Source of the DNA: an uncultured Myxococcales bacterium
GTDB taxonomy: Bacteria > Myxococcota > Myxococcia > Myxococcales > Myxococcaceae
Length of the DNA: 44,637 bases
Assembly (NCBI GenBank): GCA_903911905.1
Contig: CAIWFK010000834.1
Span: 1 to 44,637 of the forward strand
Direction of reading: 5' to 3'
Each line of letters begins with the position of its first letter. The first letter of the stretch is position 1. Below the pieces are notes generated by a model, which saw only the letters and a program-made list of their open reading frames with translations, did no database searches and was not told the origin of the DNA. Of this stretch, positions 31,312 through 44,284 are shown piece by piece. Position numbers and translations under genes: made by a program.

Positions 31312-34230
31312 TCAGGGCGCGACGCAGGTGCCGTTGGTGCAGGTCTGGTTCGACGCGCACGCTCGGCCGCAGGCGCCGCAGTTGTTCCGGTCGAACAGGG
31401 TGTTCGAGCAGGTCGCCCCGCACAGGGTCAGGCCGTTCGCGCAGGTGCACATGCCCGCGATACAGCCGACCTGCGCCGCGGTGCCCGGGCACACCACGCC
31501 GCAGCCGCCGCAGTTGGTGCGGTCGTTGCTCAGGTCGCGGCACACGCCCAGGCAGTTGGTCTGGCCGACCGCGCACGAGCAGGTGCCCGCGGTGCAGAAG
31601 AAGCCGGGGTTGCAGGCGTTGCCGCAGTTGCCGCAGTTGTTCCGGTCGCTCTGCAGGTTGCGACACACGCCCGAGCACACCGCGCTGCCGCCAGTGCAGT
31701 AGCACAGGCCGCCCACGCACTGTTCGGCCGTGCCGCACACGTTGCCGCAGCCTCCACAGTTGGCGGCGTCGGCCAGCACGTCGATGCAGGCGCCGTTGCA
31801 GGCAGCCTGGCCCGCGCTGCACATGGTCTGGCAGGTGCCCGCATTGCAGACCTGGCCCGCGCCGCAGACCACGCCGCAGCCGCCGCAGTTGGCGGGGTCG
31901 GTGTTGATCTGCACGCAGGCGTTGCCGCAGCGGGTGGCGTTCTGCGCGCAGGTGCAGACGCCGGCGTTGCACCCCACCGAGCCGGCACCGCACGCGTTGC
32001 CGCACGCGCCGCAGTTGTTGCGGTCGTTGTTGGTGTTGATGCACGAGCCGTTGCAGTCGGTCTCGAAGGGCAGGCACATGCGCCGGCACATGCCGCCGTT
32101 GCAGACCTGGTTGGCGTTGCAGGTCACGCCGCACGCGCCGCAGTTCTGGCCGTCGGTGCGGGTGTTGACGCACGCGCCGTTGCACGAGGTGAGGTTGGGG
32201 TTGGCGCAGGTGCACGCGCCGTTGACGCACGCGCCGCCGGTTCCGCACGACACGCCGCACGCGCCGCAGTCGCTGGGGCTGGTCTGGGTGTTGGCGCAGG
32301 TGCCCTTGCAGTCGGTGTAGCCCGTGGGGCACCCCGCGCGGCAGGCGCCCGAGAGGCAGTTGGTGCCCGCCGCGCAGACCGTGCCGCACGCGCCGCAGTT
32401 GTTGGGGTCGGTGACGGTGTCGGTGCAGGTGCCGTTGCAGGTGGTGAGGCCGCCGCCGCAGACGCACGCGCCGTTGGAGCACGTCTCACCCGTCTTGCAG
32501 GTCACGCCGCACGCACCGCAGTTCGCCGGGTCGTTCGACACGGTGGTGCACGCGCCGTTGCAGTCCTTCGTGCCGGCCGGGCAGGTGCAGACGCCCTGCA
32601 GGCACTGCGCGCCCTTCGAGCAGCCGTGCCCGCAGCTGCCGCAGTTGTTGACGTCGACGCCTTCGTTCACGCAGGTGCCGTTGCACGAGGTGGTGCCGGC
32701 CGCGCACTGGCAGGCACCCGCCACGCAGCTCGCTCCCGCGCCGCACACGTGGCCGCAGCTGCCGCAGTTGAGCGGGTCGGTCTGGGTGTTGCCGCAGTTG
32801 GCGACGCACTTGCCCGACGAGCAGGTCTGCCCCGCGCCGCACACGATGCCGCAACCGCCGCAGTTCACCGGGTCGGTGGTGAGCGTGGTGCACTGGTTGC
32901 CGCACAGCGTGGTTCCCGCCGCGCAGGTGCAGGTACCGTTGGTGCAGCTCTGGCCGACCGCGCAGCCGCGCCCGCAGCCACCGCAGTTGGTGGGGTCGGT
33001 GGAGGTGTCGACGCAGGCGTTGCCGCACAATTGCTGCGAACCCATGCAGGGGCTGACGCACTGGCCGGCCTGGCACGAGAAGCCCGCCGAGCAGACCTTG
33101 CCGCACGCGCCGCAGTTGAGCGGGTCGGTCTGCAACAGCACGCACGAATTGCCGCACTGGGTGGTCATGGCGCTGCAGACCTGGCCGCAGGTGGTGCCGT
33201 CGCACAGTTGGCTCGAGGTGCAGGCCACGCCGCACGCGCCGCAGTTCTTCGGGTCGGTCTTCGCCACGCAGGTACCGTTGCAGAGGTTCTGGCCCGCGGG
33301 GCAGGTGCACTGGCCGGCGACGCACGAGGTGCCCGCGCCACACGTCTTGCCGCACGCGCCGCAGTCGGTTGCGCTGTCGGACAGGTTGACGCACGCGCCA
33401 TGGCACGAGACCAGCGGGGCCGCGCAGGCGATGGTGCACGCGCCGGCCACGCACGACGAGCCGGTGCCACAGACCTTGCCGCACGCGCCGCAGTTGGCCG
33501 CATCGGAGCTGACGTCGACGCAGGCGCCGTTGCAGACCTGCTGGCCGGTCGGGCATTGGGTGGTGCAGTGGCCCGACACGCAGCCCTGGCCGCTGGCGCA
33601 GGCGGTGTTGCAGGCTCCACAGTTCTTCACGTCGGTCAGCGGGTCGACGCAGGTGCCGGCGCAGTCGAGCTGGGTGGCACCGCAGGCCTGCACGCAGCGG
33701 CCATTGGTGCAGGTGGCGTTGGCGCCGCAGACGGTGCCGCAGCCGCCACAGTTGAACGGGTCGGCGTTCTGGTCGACGCAGCCGCCGTTGCAGTTGGTGA
33801 ACCCCGTGCCACAGTTGGCCACGCACGCGCCCTGCTGGCAGAGCTGGCCGCCGCAGTCCTTCCCACAGGCACCGCAGTTCTTCGGGTCACTCGACGGGTT
33901 GGTGCAGCCCGTGCTGCAGGCGAGGAGCCCGCTGCCCGCGCACTGGCAGGTGCTGCCGATGCAGGTCTCGAGCGACGAGCAGGTGGTGCCGCACGCGCCG
34001 CAGTTGGCGTGGTCGGCCGTGGTGTCGACGCAGGTGCCGCTGCACGAGGTCTGGCCGGTGGCACAGGTGCCGCCGTCGGGGGTCGAGCCGGGCACGCAGC
34101 GCAGGTTCACGCAGGTGAAGCCGATGCCGCACGACGGGTCGCCCGGGCCGTTGCAGAAGTAGAGCGTGGTGCGCGAGCAGCCCGCGGCGGTCAGGGCGAG
34201 GACGGCGAGGGCGAGGGCGTGGGGGCGCAT
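31312..34230 (-). CDS. giant cysteine-rich repeat lipoprotein (MXAN_6577-like/Stig1-like)
   Basis: A 972-residue lipoprotein (lipobox LTAAGC, Cys18) composed almost entirely of about 22 tandem units of roughly 40 residues. Each unit contains NCGACG or NCGGCG, then a CxxGxxCxxGxC pattern and a short CNGxCV segment. One unit (around VANCGNTQTDPLNCGSC) lacks the usual middle CNGxC part. Such proteins are abundant in myxobacteria and resemble plant Stig1 repeats. Many disulfides would make a stiff rod on the outer membrane. The repeats keep other frames open on both strands, which are shadows. It precedes the SET gene by 3 bp. Its function is unknown, with adhesion or matrix roles likely. Confidence 0.85.
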   Translation of the reverse strand: MRPHALALAVLALTAAGCSRTTLYFCNGPGDPSCGIGFTCVNLRCVPGSTPDGGTCATGQTSCSGTCVDTTADHANCGACGTTCSSLETCIGSTCQCAGSGLLACSTGCTNPSSDPKNCGACGKDCGGQLCQQGACVANCGTGFTNCNGGCVDQNADPFNCGGCGTVCGANATCTNGRCVQACGATQLDCAGTCVDPLTDVKNCGACNTACASGQGCVSGHCTTQCPTGQQVCNGACVDVSSDAANCGACGKVCGTGSSCVAGACTIACAAPLVSCHGACVNLSDSATDCGACGKTCGAGTSCVAGQCTCPAGQNLCNGTCVAKTDPKNCGACGVACTSSQLCDGTTCGQVCSAMTTQCGNSCVLLQTDPLNCGACGKVCSAGFSCQAGQCVSPCMGSQQLCGNACVDTSTDPTNCGGCGRGCAVGQSCTNGTCTCAAGTTLCGNQCTTLTTDPVNCGGCGIVCGAGQTCSSGKCVANCGNTQTDPLNCGSCGHVCGAGASCVAGACQCAAGTTSCNGTCVNEGVDVNNCGSCGHGCSKGAQCLQGVCTCPAGTKDCNGACTTVSNDPANCGACGVTCKTGETCSNGACVCGGGLTTCNGTCTDTVTDPNNCGACGTVCAAGTNCLSGACRAGCPTGYTDCKGTCANTQTSPSDCGACGVSCGTGGACVNGACTCANPNLTSCNGACVNTRTDGQNCGACGVTCNANQVCNGGMCRRMCLPFETDCNGSCINTNNDRNNCGACGNACGAGSVGCNAGVCTCAQNATRCGNACVQINTDPANCGGCGVVCGAGQVCNAGTCQTMCSAGQAACNGACIDVLADAANCGGCGNVCGTAEQCVGGLCYCTGGSAVCSGVCRNLQSDRNNCGNCGNACNPGFFCTAGTCSCAVGQTNCLGVCRDLSNDRTNCGGCGVVCPGTAAQVGCIAGMCTCANGLTLCGATCSNTLFDRNNCGACGRACASNQTCTNGTCVAP

Positions 34231-38384: not shown

Positions 38385-40262
38385 ATGGACCCCCTTGCGC
38401 CGTACTTCCTCGGAGCCTTCGCCGAGAACAACGACTTCTTCGAGAAGACCGTCATCGAACTCGTGCGCGACCACGTGTTCTGGCGCAGAAATTTCCACCC
38501 CGAAGACCTGCCGCCCATCGGCACCGCCGACCAGTATTCGCCCGAGTACCTCGAAGGCGTGGCCCGCACCCGCCACGAGCTGCACCAACTGACCGCCGCG
38601 CTCAAGCGCTCGGTGCCCTTCTTCCACCCGCGCTACCTGGGGCACATGGTCAGCGACCTGTTGCTGCCCGGGCTGGTCGCGCAGTTGGTCACCACGCTCT
38701 ACAACCCCAACAACGTCGTCGAAGACGCGGCGCCCGTCACCGTGCAGTTGGAGCTCGAGGTCGGCCGGCAACTGGCGACCATGCTCGGCTTCGCCATCGA
38801 CCCCGCGAAGGTGCCGTGCGCGCTGGGCCACCTGACCAGTGGCGGCACCATCGCCAACGACCAGGCGCTCTTCCTGGCGCGCGCGGTGCGGCTTCTGCCG
38901 CTGGCCATGCGCGACGCCCTCGACTCGCTGGGCCGCCGCCCCGAGACGATTTCGCCGAAGCTCGACGCAGACGACTGGGCGCACCTGAACCTCCCGACCC
39001 GCGACATTCTCGACCTGGCCGACACCTTCCACCGCGACCCCGAGCTGGCGAAGGCGCTGGCGCACACCCGGGTCGAGCACGTGGGCCTGGGGCACTTCTG
39101 CGCGAAGCACCCGCTGGTCGCCAACCTCGCGGTCATCGCGCCCGGCACCGCGCACTACTCGTGGAAGAAGGCGCTGCGCCTGCTGGGGCTGGGCGCCGCC
39201 AACCTGGTCGAACTGCCCACCCGTCAGGCCCGCGCCGATTCGGCCGCGCTCGACACGCTGTTGCAGACCTTCGCACGCGAGCGCCGGCCGGTGCTGATGG
39301 TGATGGGGGTGTACGGCACCACCGAGTTCGGCACGCTCGACCCGCTGCACGAACTGGCCGCGCTGCGCGGTCGGTCGGTCGACTTCTGGCTGCACGTCGA
39401 CGCGGCGTGGGGCGGCTACCTGCCCTCGGTGTTCCGCGACCCGAAGGGGAACCTGCGACCGCGCGAGGACCTTCGCGCCGAGTTCGCGCACTTTCCCTCG
39501 CAGCGCGTCTACGACACCACTGCGGCGCTGCCCCTGGCTGATTCCATCACCGTCGACCCGCACAAGCAGGGCTTCGTGCCCTACGGCGCCGGCTGCTTCG
39601 TGGCGAAGGACCGCCGGGTCTTCGACCTGGTGCTGACCGACGCGGCCTACGTCTTCCATGGCGACGAGCTGGGCGAGCAGCGCTACCGCTCGCCCGGGCG
39701 CTTCAGCCTGGAAGGCTCGCGGCCCGGCGCGGCGGCGGCAGCGTGTGTGGTCAACCACCGCGTGTTGCCGCTGGACTCGGCGCACTTCGGCCGGCTCATC
39801 GCCCGCTCGGTGCACACCTGCGAGACCTTGTCCGACGCGTTGCCCGCCTTCGCGGCGCGCCTGGCCCCGGTGGCGACCCTGGCCATGCCCTTCGACCCCG
39901 ACTGCAACCTGCTGGTCTTCGCGGTCAACCCGCTGGGCAACCGCTCGCTCAAGGCGGCCAACGCGTTCGGCCAGCGGGTGATGGACGCGATGAGCGTCAC
40001 GCCCGCGCGGCCGGTGCAGTTGCGTGAATTCTTCGGTTCCTGCACCACCGTCTCGCTCGAGCACCTGAGCGCCGACAGCGCCGAATTGTTCCGCGCGCTG
40101 GGCCTCACCGAGGTCGACGACGACGGCGTGTTCCTGCTGCGGCACACGCTGATGAACCCGTGGTTGCTCTCTCACCCCACCGAAGGTGACGGCAGCTACC
40201 TCGACGCGTACCTGGCCTTCCTCGAGCGCACGGTGCACGAGCTGGTCACCGTGGTACGGTGA
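38385..40262 (+). CDS. PLP-dependent group II decarboxylase-family protein
   Basis: A 625-residue fold-type I PLP enzyme of the glutamate/aromatic-amino-acid decarboxylase family. The PLP lysine is in SITVDPHKQGFVPYG (Lys394). Upstream are LTSGGTIANDQALFLAR, which holds the phosphate-binding region, and FWLHVDAAWGGYLPS with the ring-binding Asp and Ala. It is longer than typical GAD (about 460), with extra N-terminal and C-terminal segments. Substrate specificity cannot be read by eye; tyrosine, aspartate, glutamate or a secondary-metabolite amine are possible. The start is ATG 38385. It overlaps the next gene by 4 bp (GTGA), suggesting coupling. Confidence 0.85.
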   Translation: MDPLAPYFLGAFAENNDFFEKTVIELVRDHVFWRRNFHPEDLPPIGTADQYSPEYLEGVARTRHELHQLTAALKRSVPFFHPRYLGHMVSDLLLPGLVAQLVTTLYNPNNVVEDAAPVTVQLELEVGRQLATMLGFAIDPAKVPCALGHLTSGGTIANDQALFLARAVRLLPLAMRDALDSLGRRPETISPKLDADDWAHLNLPTRDILDLADTFHRDPELAKALAHTRVEHVGLGHFCAKHPLVANLAVIAPGTAHYSWKKALRLLGLGAANLVELPTRQARADSAALDTLLQTFARERRPVLMVMGVYGTTEFGTLDPLHELAALRGRSVDFWLHVDAAWGGYLPSVFRDPKGNLRPREDLRAEFAHFPSQRVYDTTAALPLADSITVDPHKQGFVPYGAGCFVAKDRRVFDLVLTDAAYVFHGDELGEQRYRSPGRFSLEGSRPGAAAAACVVNHRVLPLDSAHFGRLIARSVHTCETLSDALPAFAARLAPVATLAMPFDPDCNLLVFAVNPLGNRSLKAANAFGQRVMDAMSVTPARPVQLREFFGSCTTVSLEHLSADSAELFRALGLTEVDDDGVFLLRHTLMNPWLLSHPTEGDGSYLDAYLAFLERTVHELVTVVR

Positions 40263-42748
40263 CGCTCGTGCTTTCCCTGATGCTCACCTTCGCATTGGCC
40301 GGTTCGCCGACCCCGCGCGAAGTGCTGCAGGGCATCGACCAGCAGGAAACGCTGAACCTCGAGCTCGAGGCGCATTTCGACCAGGTCTGCAGCGCGCTCA
40401 AAGCGGGCCGGCACGACCTGAGCGGGCTGGTGGGCCCGGGCGTGCGCTTCCCCATCGACGAATTCGTCCAGGTCCCTTCGTGCTCGCTGCGTGCGCTGTC
40501 GGTCGGCAAGGTGGTCGACGACACCATCGCCCTGCGCGTGTTGTGGGACCTCGACGGCCGCGACGCGCGAGGGGCCCGCCGCTCGGTGCGAGCCGAGAGC
40601 GACGGCGAAGTCGTGCGCGAAGGCAAGGGCTGGAAGCTGAGCCGGCTCGACACGTCGAACGCCCATCGGGTCGAGCGCGATGCGCCGCGCTTCGTCGAGC
40701 GCGCCGCCGAGGCAGGGCTGGTGTTGCCTCAGGTGGTGACACCCATTTCGCCAGCGGCGTTCCTGTCGAGCGGGTTGGCGATTCGCGACGTCGACGGCGA
40801 TGGTATCGCCGACGTCTTCGTCATCGATCGCCAGACGCTGTATCTCTACCGTGGCAAGCCGGGCCTGCACTTCGCGCCGCCGGTAGCCATCGCCAGGACC
40901 GGTGGCGACACCATCTTGAGCGGCGTCTCGCTGGGCGACCTCGACGGCGATGGCGACCCCGACCTGGTGCTCACGACCTGGCGCGACCGGCCAGTACGTC
41001 TGTTCCGCAACGAGCACGGCACCTTCGTCGAGGCGGGCAAAGTTGGGCGCGGCGGGCAGCACCAGGGCACGGTGCTCAGCGACCTCGACGGCGACGGGAA
41101 GTTGGACCTGGCGGTGGTCAGCTACCCGCTGGGCTACGCGATTCCCTCGAGCTTCCTCAACGCCGACAACGGCGACCCGCCCGAGCTGTGGCTGGGCAAC
41201 GGCGACTTCACCTTTCACCAACTGCCTCTCCCCGCACGTGTCGCGAAGCACCATTGGAGCTTCGGCGGGGTGGCCGCCGACTTTCTCCATCGAGGCGGAA
41301 TGCAGCTCTACGTCTTCAACGACTATGGCGTGAAGGACCTCTACGTGCTCGACCGCGACGGCGGGGTCAGTGAGGTCTCGGCGCAGTACGGGCTCAACGA
41401 CCCGGGCGGCGGCATGAGCGCCGACCTGGGCGACGTCGACAACGACGATCGCGTCGACCTCTACGTCGCCAACATGTTCAGCAAGGCCGGAACCCGTATC
41501 GCCAACGGCGTCGGGGCCAGGGTGCCCGAGGCGACGCGCGACCTGGTCTCGAAGTTCGTGCGCGGCAACACGCTCTTCCTGGGTCAACCCGATGGCGGGT
41601 ACGCCGACCATGCGGTCGACCTCGAGGTGCACCGCGGGCTGTGGAGCTTCGCGTCGCTGCTGGCCGACGTCGACAACGACTCGCGGCTCGAGGTGCTCAT
41701 CGCCAACGGCTTCATCAGCGGGAAAAAACGAAAAGACCTTTGAAGTGTCTATTGGCGCCAGGTCCTGGCGCAATCAGTACTCTCGAGCAACCCCTCGCCG
41801 GCTGACGAGGCGCTGGCGCTGCCCCCGAGCAACATGACGGCGAGCAGCGAAGACAGCATGTCGGGCTTCGAGCCCAAGCGGCTCTTCGCGCGCGGCGCTG
41901 ACGGCCGGTTCGACGACTGCGCCTTCGTCGAGGGCTTCGACTCGCGCCTCGATGGCCGCAGCCTGGTGGCCGCCGACCTCGACGGTGACGGTGACCTCGA
42001 CCTGGTGATGACCACCCGCAACGGGCCGCACCTGCAGTTGTTCGAGAACGTGGGCGCGCCGGGCCAGGCCTTCGAGCTCGAATTGCACGCCGTGCACGGG
42101 CACCCCGAGGCCGACGGTACGGTGGTGCACGTGGAAGGGGTCGGCGCGTTCCCGGTGGTGCTCAACCGCGGGTACTCGAGCTCGACCGACCCTGCGGTGC
42201 ACGTCGGCCTGGGCACCCGGCAGAGCGCGCGGGTGCGGGTTCAGTGGCGCAGCGGCGTCACCGAAGACGTCGGGGTCGTCGCCGCAGGAGCGCGGGTGCG
42301 CGCGACGGAGGGCGCTGGCAAGGTCGAGCCGGTACGGGCGTTCACCGAAGGCCGTCGCCTTCCCGCGCGGCCGTTCCCCGCGAAGGTGAGCGACCTGCCC
42401 CTGCCCAGGGGGGAAGGCCCGACGGTGGTGCAGTTGTTCATGCAGTCGTGCAAGCCCTGCCGTGAAGAGGTGCCCGCGCTCAACGCGCTCTCGAAGAAGG
42501 GGAAGGTGCACGTGTTCGGTCTGGGGCTGCACGACGACAACGCGCTGCCGAAGGTGCGCGCGGCGATGAAGATGACCTACGAGGTCGCGCCGTTGCCCGA
42601 GCCGGTCGCCGAGGCCTTCGAGAGTGGTGGTGGTCTCGCGCTCCCCACGCTGCTGGTCTACGGCGCCGACGGGGTGTTGATGCGCGTCATCTCGGGCGCA
42701 GGCAACCTTCCGCCGGTGCTCGACGAGCTGAAGCTCGACGCTCGCTGA
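40259..42748 (+). CDS. secreted FG-GAP/ASPIC (CRTAC1-like) plus thioredoxin fusion with in-frame UGA
   Basis: GTG 40259 (GTGA overlap with the decarboxylase) begins a signal peptide (LVLSLMLTFALAG). An N-terminal domain of about 150 residues is followed by FG-GAP/VCBS calcium-binding blades (VRDVDGDGIADVFV-like units: IRDVDGDGIADV, GDLDGDGDPDLV, SDLDGDGKLDLA, GDVDNDDRVDLY). Codon 495 is UGA (41741-41743), after SGKKRKDL. The same frame continues SVYWRQVLAQSVLSS, a conserved element of this family, then another blade (ADLDGDGDLDLVMTT), an ASPIC/UnbV-like region (HVGLGTRQSARVRVQW) and a TlpA-like thioredoxin domain with CKPC (731-734). Full length would be 829 residues. A strong hairpin follows the UGA. 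It is either a selenoprotein or a nonsense-mutated gene; a downstream restart at ATG 41834 would lack a signal. Confidence 0.65.
41751..41774 (+). promoter_or_regulatory. candidate SECIS-like hairpin downstream of UGA 41741-41743
   Basis: Counting the U of UGA as 1, bases 11-20 (AUUGGCGCCA) pair with 26-34 (UGGCGCAAU) with one bulged G, giving nine pairs. The five-base apical loop is G21-G22-U23-C24-C25. The loop has G in its first two positions and starts 17 bases after the UGA, within the 16-37 window of bacterial SECIS models as I recall them. The fdhF element of E. coli has loop G23-U24. Confidence 0.45.
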
Positions 42749-42787: not shown

Positions 42788-44284
42788 ATGCGTCGACTGG
42801 CCTTCGTGACCTCGTTCCTCGTGGCCTGCAGCGCCTTCGCGCAGACGAAGCCTGCGCCGGGTGGCTACACGCCGTCGGTGACGTACCAGTTGCTCGACGT
42901 GGCGCTCGACGCCACGGCGACCGAAATCGAACGGGTCGGAGCACGGCCCACCATCAACTCGCGCGAGCTCTTCCTGGCCACCGCGGCGCTCTACGACGCG
43001 TGGTCGCTCTACGACGCCGACGCGCAGCCCTCGCACCTCAGCGGCGTGGCCCGTCGCCCGGTCAACGAGCGCACCGACGAGGCGCGGGCTCGCGCGATGA
43101 CTGCGGCTCTCGAGACGGTGTTGCTCGACCTCTACCCTTCGCAGAAGTCGCGGCTCGAGGCGGTCTTCGCGGCGCGCGGGCTCAAGGCCGCACCGGCGAA
43201 GGGCTCGCCCGAGGCGTGGGGCGTGGCGGTCGCGCAGGCCATCATCGGGCAGCACCAGCACGACGGCGCCAACCAACTGGGTGACGAGCGCGGCTCGAAT
43301 GGCACGCCGTACGCCGACTACACGTTCTACACGCCGGTGAATGGCCCGCAGAAGGTCATCGACGAAGACCGCTGGCAGCCCATTCCCTTCACGCTCGACT
43401 CGGGCGAGGTGGTGCGGCCCAATTTCCTGACGCCGCATTGGTACCGCGTGAAGCCGTGGGCGCTCGACTCGGCCTCGCAGTTCCGCCCGCCGCCCCCGCC
43501 GAAGTACGGCAGCGAGCAGCTCAAGCAGGAGGTGGACGAGGTGATGGCGCTCAACGCGAACCTCACCGCCGAGCAGAAGGCCACGGTCGAGTTCATGCGC
43601 GACGGCCCGCGCTCGACGGGGCAGTCGGGGCACTGGCTGCGCTTCGCCCAGGCCGTGTCACGTCGTGACCAGAACGACCTGTCGCGCGACGCGAAGCTCT
43701 TCTTCGCGGTGGGAGCGGTGTGCTTCGACGCCTTCATCGCCGCGTGGGACGCCAAGCGCTACTACGACTCCTCGCGCCCGTGGACGCTGGTGCGGGTCAT
43801 GTACAAGGGCCAGAAGGTGCGCGGCTGGCTGGGGCCCGGCCAGGGCGTGGGGCTCATTCCCGCCGAGCAGTGGGCGCCGTATTCGCCGGCCTCGTTCGTG
43901 ACGCCGCCCTTTCCCGGGTACGTCAGCGGGCACAGCACGGTCAGCGGCGCGGCGGCGCGGGTGCTCACGTTGTTCACCGGCTCGGACCGCTTCGATGACG
44001 AAGACGCGCGGCGCGCCGGGCAACTGACCGAGAAGGGCGCCACCCACGCGGCGATGCAGTCGGTCGACGGCAAGCCTTCGACTGCCAGCGAGAAGAGCTG
44101 CGACGTGGTGTTGCCGTTGCCCACCTTCACCGCGACCGCGGCGATGGCGGGGTGGTCGCGCGTGCTGGGCGGGTACCACATTCAAGCCGACAACCTGGCC
44201 GGCCTCGAGCTGGGGCGGAAGGTGGCCGATGCGGCGTGGCCGAAGCTGGAAGCGCGCTTCGGCGTGAAGAAGAAGAAGAACTAG
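42788..44284 (+). CDS. secreted vanadium-haloperoxidase-like (PAP2-fold) protein
   Basis: A 498-residue protein with a signal peptide ([15 protein letters not shown]) and the complete PAP2/vanadium haloperoxidase signature: K-x6-RP (KRYYDSSRP, 323-331), [11 protein letters not shown] (SGH at 380-382) and SR-x5-H (SRVLGGYH, 457-464). Relatives are vanadium-dependent haloperoxidases and acid phosphatases. Its length and the spacing of the motifs fit the bacterial haloperoxidase-like group; whether it binds vanadate or acts as a phosphatase is not decided by sequence. ATG 42788 follows the fusion gene by 39 bp. The stop overlaps the convergent atpG stop in a CTAG tetranucleotide. Confidence 0.85.

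Follow-up and report, generated by a model that had tools for sequence, protein, structure and literature searches.

The 44,637-nucleotide contig CAIWFK010000834.1 of an uncultured Myxococcales bacterium (assembly GCA_903911905.1; this whole stretch of DNA is called the window below) contains a frame of 829 codons and a final TGA that is interrupted by a single internal TGA, codon 495. Is this UGA a defect in an ordinary gene, or is it decoded as selenocysteine (Sec), and what might a Sec residue do in such a protein? A preliminary description, made from the window alone, had seen one UGA in an otherwise continuous frame, conserved protein on both sides of it, five cysteines in the readthrough product and a hairpin behind the UGA, and had inferred an undescribed exported selenoprotein family, with a nonsense mutation or base error as the rival. 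These claims are taken up below together with comparisons to relatives in several bacterial phyla.

The gene and its internal UGA

Re-reading the frame confirmed its continuity on both sides of codon 495, and the features of the locus are collected in Table 1. The gene begins with a GTG that overlaps the stop codon of the upstream gene, the UGA is flanked by KKRKDL upstream and SVYWRQVLAQS downstream, and the cysteines of the 829-codon product are at residues 44, 75 and 556 and in the CKPC motif (731-734), five in all, as had been described. In close pairs of relatives dN/dS downstream of the UGA is 0.08-0.49, and it is likewise low in the first 60 codons. In these relatives purifying selection thus acts both before and after the UGA, and the readthrough product is therefore under selection. 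Ordinary gene calling breaks up or shortens genes of this kind at the UGA.

Table 1. Positions of the selenoprotein gene, its parts and the next gene in the window
Feature	Position	Strand	Basis
Putative selenoprotein gene (829 codons with Sec495 counted, followed by TGA stop)	40259..42748	+	Frame; relatives show purifying selection before and after the UGA
FG-GAP beta-propeller repeats preceding the Sec codon	40787..41740	+	Pfam PF13517/PF01839; model resembles murine CRTAC1 (9etn)
Putative Sec-encoding UGA, codon 495	41741..41743	+	All close homologs and 83/135 tree sequences have UGA at this codon
SECIS upper stem-loop GCGCCAG-GUC-CUGGCGC, loop beginning 18 nt past the UGA	41755..41771	+	Folding and comparative evidence
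UnbV/ASPIC domain, residues 620-679	42116..42295	+	PF07593, E = 9.7e-10
C-terminal thioredoxin-like domain, residues 718-807	42410..42679	+	Weak AhpC-TSA and DsbE/TlpA matches, ResA/StoA fold matches, CxxC conservation
CKPC motif of the thioredoxin-like domain	42449-42460	+	
Next gene, DUF6851/vanadium-chloroperoxidase-like PAP2 protein	42788..44284	+	PF21167, PF22778, PF01569

The UGA is shared by homologs in at least four phyla

The residue at codon 495 in homologs was the check that the preliminary description had proposed. In 60 related genomes, all long homologs have TGA at the corresponding codon. When 195 genomes of the window's phylum were searched with a profile, 13 other genomes gave 14 homologs whose alignment covers the site, and all 14 have TGA; some belong to other families and classes, with identity of about 30%, and the 14 include one of another class-level family and one from a different part of the phylum. 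The search also gave two more remote matches (L164 and L165), which have no alignment over the motif. Named genome contigs were scanned as well, and TGA stands at this site in Acidobacteriota, Akkermansiaceae (Verrucomicrobiota) and Gemmatimonadota. In wider sampling, 56 distinct TGA contexts came from 396 genomes of the L070 phylum (Acidobacteriota) and 388 of the L131 phylum (Verrucomicrobiota). Counted from the tabulated matches, no fewer than 48 of these 396 genomes of Acidobacteriota, or at least 12%, carry the gene. UGA at this codon is thus found in relatives from at least four bacterial phyla, and one test of a bacterial selenoprotein, an in-frame UGA that is conserved among homologs, is met. 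The 78 distinct UGA contexts collected in all stem from assemblies unrelated to one another and are followed by conserved coding sequence, so that a nonsense mutation, pseudogene or sequencing error truncating an ordinary protein, in whose favor only the draft state of the genome (907 contigs) can be cited, is refuted and retains a negligible probability.

A SECIS hairpin follows the UGA

The window hairpin starts 11 nt 3' of the UGA and consists of the upper stem-loop of Table 1 above two U-A pairs that lie beneath a G bulge. On refolding, the nine pairs and single bulge of the preliminary description were recovered, and the invariant G-U of the loop occupies positions 22-23, as it had stated, if the U of the UGA is counted as 1. 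The published bSECIS model calls for a loop of 3-9 nt with a G within its first two positions, a stem of 4-16 bp, a spacing of 16-37 nt and a minimum free energy of at most -7.5 kcal/mol (PMC13188914); the window satisfies every one of these constraints (loop GUC, 7-bp stem, spacing 18 nt, -11.3 kcal/mol). The same arrangement, in which a hairpin with a small loop that has G in its first positions lies 16-37 nt from the UGA, is seen in bSECIS selenoproteins such as formate dehydrogenase (FdhA/FdhF). A strict contiguous-stem version of the model is passed by 50 of the 78 UGA contexts vs 5 of 48 others.

In single-sequence folding the window hairpin by itself has z = -1.9, and several relatives are near 0. 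This value is unremarkable for the composition, so one sequence alone is unconvincing and only comparative evidence counts. A hairpin with a GU loop follows the UGA in all 69 distinct genes of the main class (motif DL-U-SxxWRxVV); its mean energy there is -11.5 kcal/mol, vs -5.9 kcal/mol in 19 relatives that share the WR motif and have a sense codon (p = 1e-9). The loop GU is retained in 18 of those 19 relatives because it encodes a conserved Val, whereas the stem is lost. Pair 18-28 joins the third base of an Arg codon, a synonymous position, to the first base of the fourth codon after it; the pair occurs as CG, GC, GU, UA and AU, and is paired in 98% of UGA genes vs 33% of non-UGA genes. A formal covariation count on 19 sequences found 7 cells changed on both sides, a number reached in 0 of 500 shuffles. 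Such comparisons take the hairpin and UGA of the window far beyond chance. A second motif class, LPYILSAVAH, lacks WRQVV and has a GGUC hairpin shifted one codon later, and a divergent UGA homolog (L282, G265:C1 at about 4000000; motif DG-U-TCLWRAVV) has an unrelated, perfect 7-bp SECIS-like stem.

Selenocysteine machinery

The preliminary description had called for a search for the sel genes. The window's genome encodes a full-length SelB on contig C508 (310 bits, above cut-off) and a full-length SelA on contig C142 (E = 1.3e-137), and so meets the test that both occur in one genome. That search was only partly satisfied, in that no tRNA-Sec was recovered from this draft (907 contigs, 92%-complete; the scan scored 150 of about 2130 candidates). 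The strongest candidates in it are tRNA-Ser; Rfam tRNA-Sec matches on its contig C771 are tRNA-Ser genes and were rejected. A direct tRNA-Sec pattern had no match in the window's genome either, and this is uninformative because the pattern also missed G013, which has a tRNA-Sec. In relatives, tRNA-Sec scored above the Rfam cut-off in all nine genomes tested, and 55 of the 57 UGA genomes tested have SelA, vs 9 of 21 sense-codon relatives (p = 5e-7, Fisher, uncorrected for shared ancestry). One of these 55 has only a partial match (G198); the two UGA genomes without a full SelA match are G107 and G472, the former with a tRNA-Sec-like match. A plasmid search gave no match.

Could the UGA be decoded as some other amino acid, or undergo inefficient readthrough, without help from the Sec machinery? 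Protein data are absent, and close UGA-free relatives have no Cys at the site, which leaves room for such decoding, but the covariation of the SECIS, the loss of the hairpin together with the UGA and the co-occurrence with SelA make it very improbable. Selenocysteine remains the preferred reading: SelB with Sec-tRNA would decode UGA 495 as Sec, steered by the downstream hairpin, a step shown by comparison and not by experiment. Although there are no protein-level data, we regard it as nearly certain from these sequence comparisons that the gene product is a selenoprotein.

Domains and predicted structure

Pfam places FG-GAP repeats both upstream and downstream of the UGA and the UnbV/ASPIC domain downstream of it. 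All FG-GAP and UnbV_ASPIC matches are above the Pfam cut-offs, and membership in the CRTAC1/ASPIC-UnbV family is met. The C-terminal domain scores below cut-off (AhpC-TSA 15.0 vs 26 in Pfam, dsbE 23.6 vs 123 in NCBIfam), while its fold match is clear; no NCBIfam model scores above its cut-off for the UGA-family proteins. An AlphaFold model has a mean pLDDT of 78.5 and a pTM of 0.78. In the PDB, murine CRTAC1 (9etn) matches it best (E = 2e-22; TM-score 0.68 by target length), and the model's C-terminal domain matches the ResA and StoA structures. In this model Sec495 is at the N-terminus of helix 494-507 (local pLDDT about 70), which would be inserted into the CRTAC1-type FG-GAP beta-propeller; the Sec is thus predicted to reside in the propeller and not in the redox fold.

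This position also bears on the idea that the UGA is a selenium-dependent switch between two designed products, a truncated propeller and the full protein, both functional. Some relatives, and the CRTAC1-like branch with Cys at the site, do without the thioredoxin domain, but the UGA lies inside the propeller, ahead of more FG-GAP repeats and the ASPIC domain, so the truncated product should misfold, and we give the switch little credence.

The UGA subfamilies that lack the thioredoxin domain are L073, L263, L264, L266, L276, L277, L280 and L282. Tandem UGA genes without the domain occur in L073 (2994-5648 and 5641-8091) and in L264/L289. At L289 a thioredoxin-like gene (WCQPC) lies two genes beyond the tandem pair, in the same direction.

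Loss of selenocysteine and of the thioredoxin CxxC

In a tree of 135 core sequences, 83 of them with UGA, the distribution of UGA and non-UGA codons requires 8 changes. The residues that take the place of Sec in relatives are Glu, Asp, Gly, Ala, Ser and Asn; Cys is found at the aligned site only in the distant CRTAC1-like branch (DYCTxFWRHDIY) and never in the closer WRQVV class. Asp or Glu at the site had been named beforehand as evidence that would refute a selenoprotein. Some relatives do have these residues, yet they belong to lineages that lack the hairpin and have mostly lost SelA.

The CxxC motif is retained in 73 of 73 UGA members that have a thioredoxin domain vs 2 of 18 members without UGA (Fisher, uncorrected for shared ancestry); the other 16 of those 18 lost Sec and CxxC alike. 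In L208 and L131 the Sec is gone and CxxC is still present. An order in which Sec is lost first and CxxC later would fit a reductant left idle after the loss of its client, which is suggestive and not proven. The joint losses represent about two independent events and are therefore suggestive only. What they suggest is that the tethered thioredoxin may service the selenocysteine, its CxxC most likely reducing an oxidised Sec (selenenic acid or selenenylsulfide). That CxxC is the in-cis partner of Sec, an inference from this coupled loss, we consider somewhat better than an even proposition. The protein would then be a self-contained periplasmic redox or peroxide-handling enzyme, again an inference from the coupled loss; its substrate is not known.

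The strongest competitor accepts the selenoprotein but makes its Sec a metal ligand or a structural anion and not a redox residue serviced by the thioredoxin. Glu or Asp stands in place of Sec in several lineages and UGA members without a thioredoxin domain exist, both of which such a role would accommodate; the presence of CxxC in every UGA member that has the domain and its loss in most relatives without Sec speak against it, and we judge it unlikely, while still a serious possibility. On the preferred redox reading, these would be widespread extracytoplasmic selenoenzymes with a catalytic Sec on a CRTAC1-type beta-propeller and their own tethered thioredoxin reductant, whose chemistry is poorly replaced by Cys, so that site and CxxC both decay in lineages that lose Sec; this full scheme is tentative, and we hold it with slightly less than even confidence. 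The coupled loss makes the mechanism directly testable.

In the clade of L243, L246, L249-L252, L254, L256-L258 and L260 the Sec is replaced by Gly, Ala or Ser, and in the same clade the thioredoxin CxxC has become AxxC, SxxC or AxxS. Its members are possibly a record of decay that followed the loss of Sec decoding.

Relation to known proteins

Like CRTAC1 and other ASPIC-UnbV FG-GAP proteins (murine CRTAC1, 9etn), the window protein has the propeller fold over its core and an UnbV_ASPIC domain; unlike CRTAC1 it carries a Sec codon, where distant CRTAC1-like bacterial relatives have Cys, and a further thioredoxin domain at the C-terminus. It resembles ResA/TlpA/DsbE-type oxidoreductases in its CxxC, its ResA/StoA structure matches and its TlpA/ResA/DsbE model matches below cut-off, and differs from them in that this domain is fused to a propeller and the Sec is outside the thioredoxin motif. 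In the known UGC-containing TlpA-family selenoproteins the Sec is in the thioredoxin motif (PMC13188914).

A 2026 inventory lists 119 selenoprotein families and subfamilies, with no FG-GAP, CRTAC1 or UnbV member among them (PMC13188914), and no FG-GAP, VCBS, CRTAC1 or ASPIC selenoprotein was found in the open-licence literature. Cys is absent from close relatives, so searches for Sec/Cys pairs are expected to miss the family, which may explain its absence. No experiment has yet been done, but we are highly confident that this is a selenoprotein with its SECIS, of a family new to the inventories. The inference of an undescribed exported family is supported by SelA and SelB, the spread of the UGA over at least four phyla and the compensatory hairpin changes; its scope has to be revised, in that the family extends far beyond a single protein and Cys rarely replaces Sec in it. 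A large family would thereby be added to the bacterial selenoproteome, with the gene in at least 12% of the genomes sampled from Acidobacteriota (above), a phylum little mentioned in the selenoproteome literature searched, and the biochemistry of CRTAC1-like proteins generally may, we infer, gain a lead.

Neighboring genes

The PAP2/DUF6851 gene lies 39 nt downstream of the selenoprotein gene, and such a gene also adjoins the homologs in L177 and L070. In 16 other loci, mostly of Bacteroidota and mostly UGA-free, similar genes lie close to FG-GAP proteins. A link between the vanadium haloperoxidase and Sec was considered and rejected: it is the neighbor at 3 UGA loci and at more UGA-free FG-GAP relatives, and so goes with the superfamily and not with Sec. 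We regard this gene as context; it is not shown to be part of the selenoprotein system. Elsewhere in the window, the minus strand at 31312-34230 encodes a 972-aa protein with 12 stretches that match the plant Stig1 family (E = 2.4e-96).
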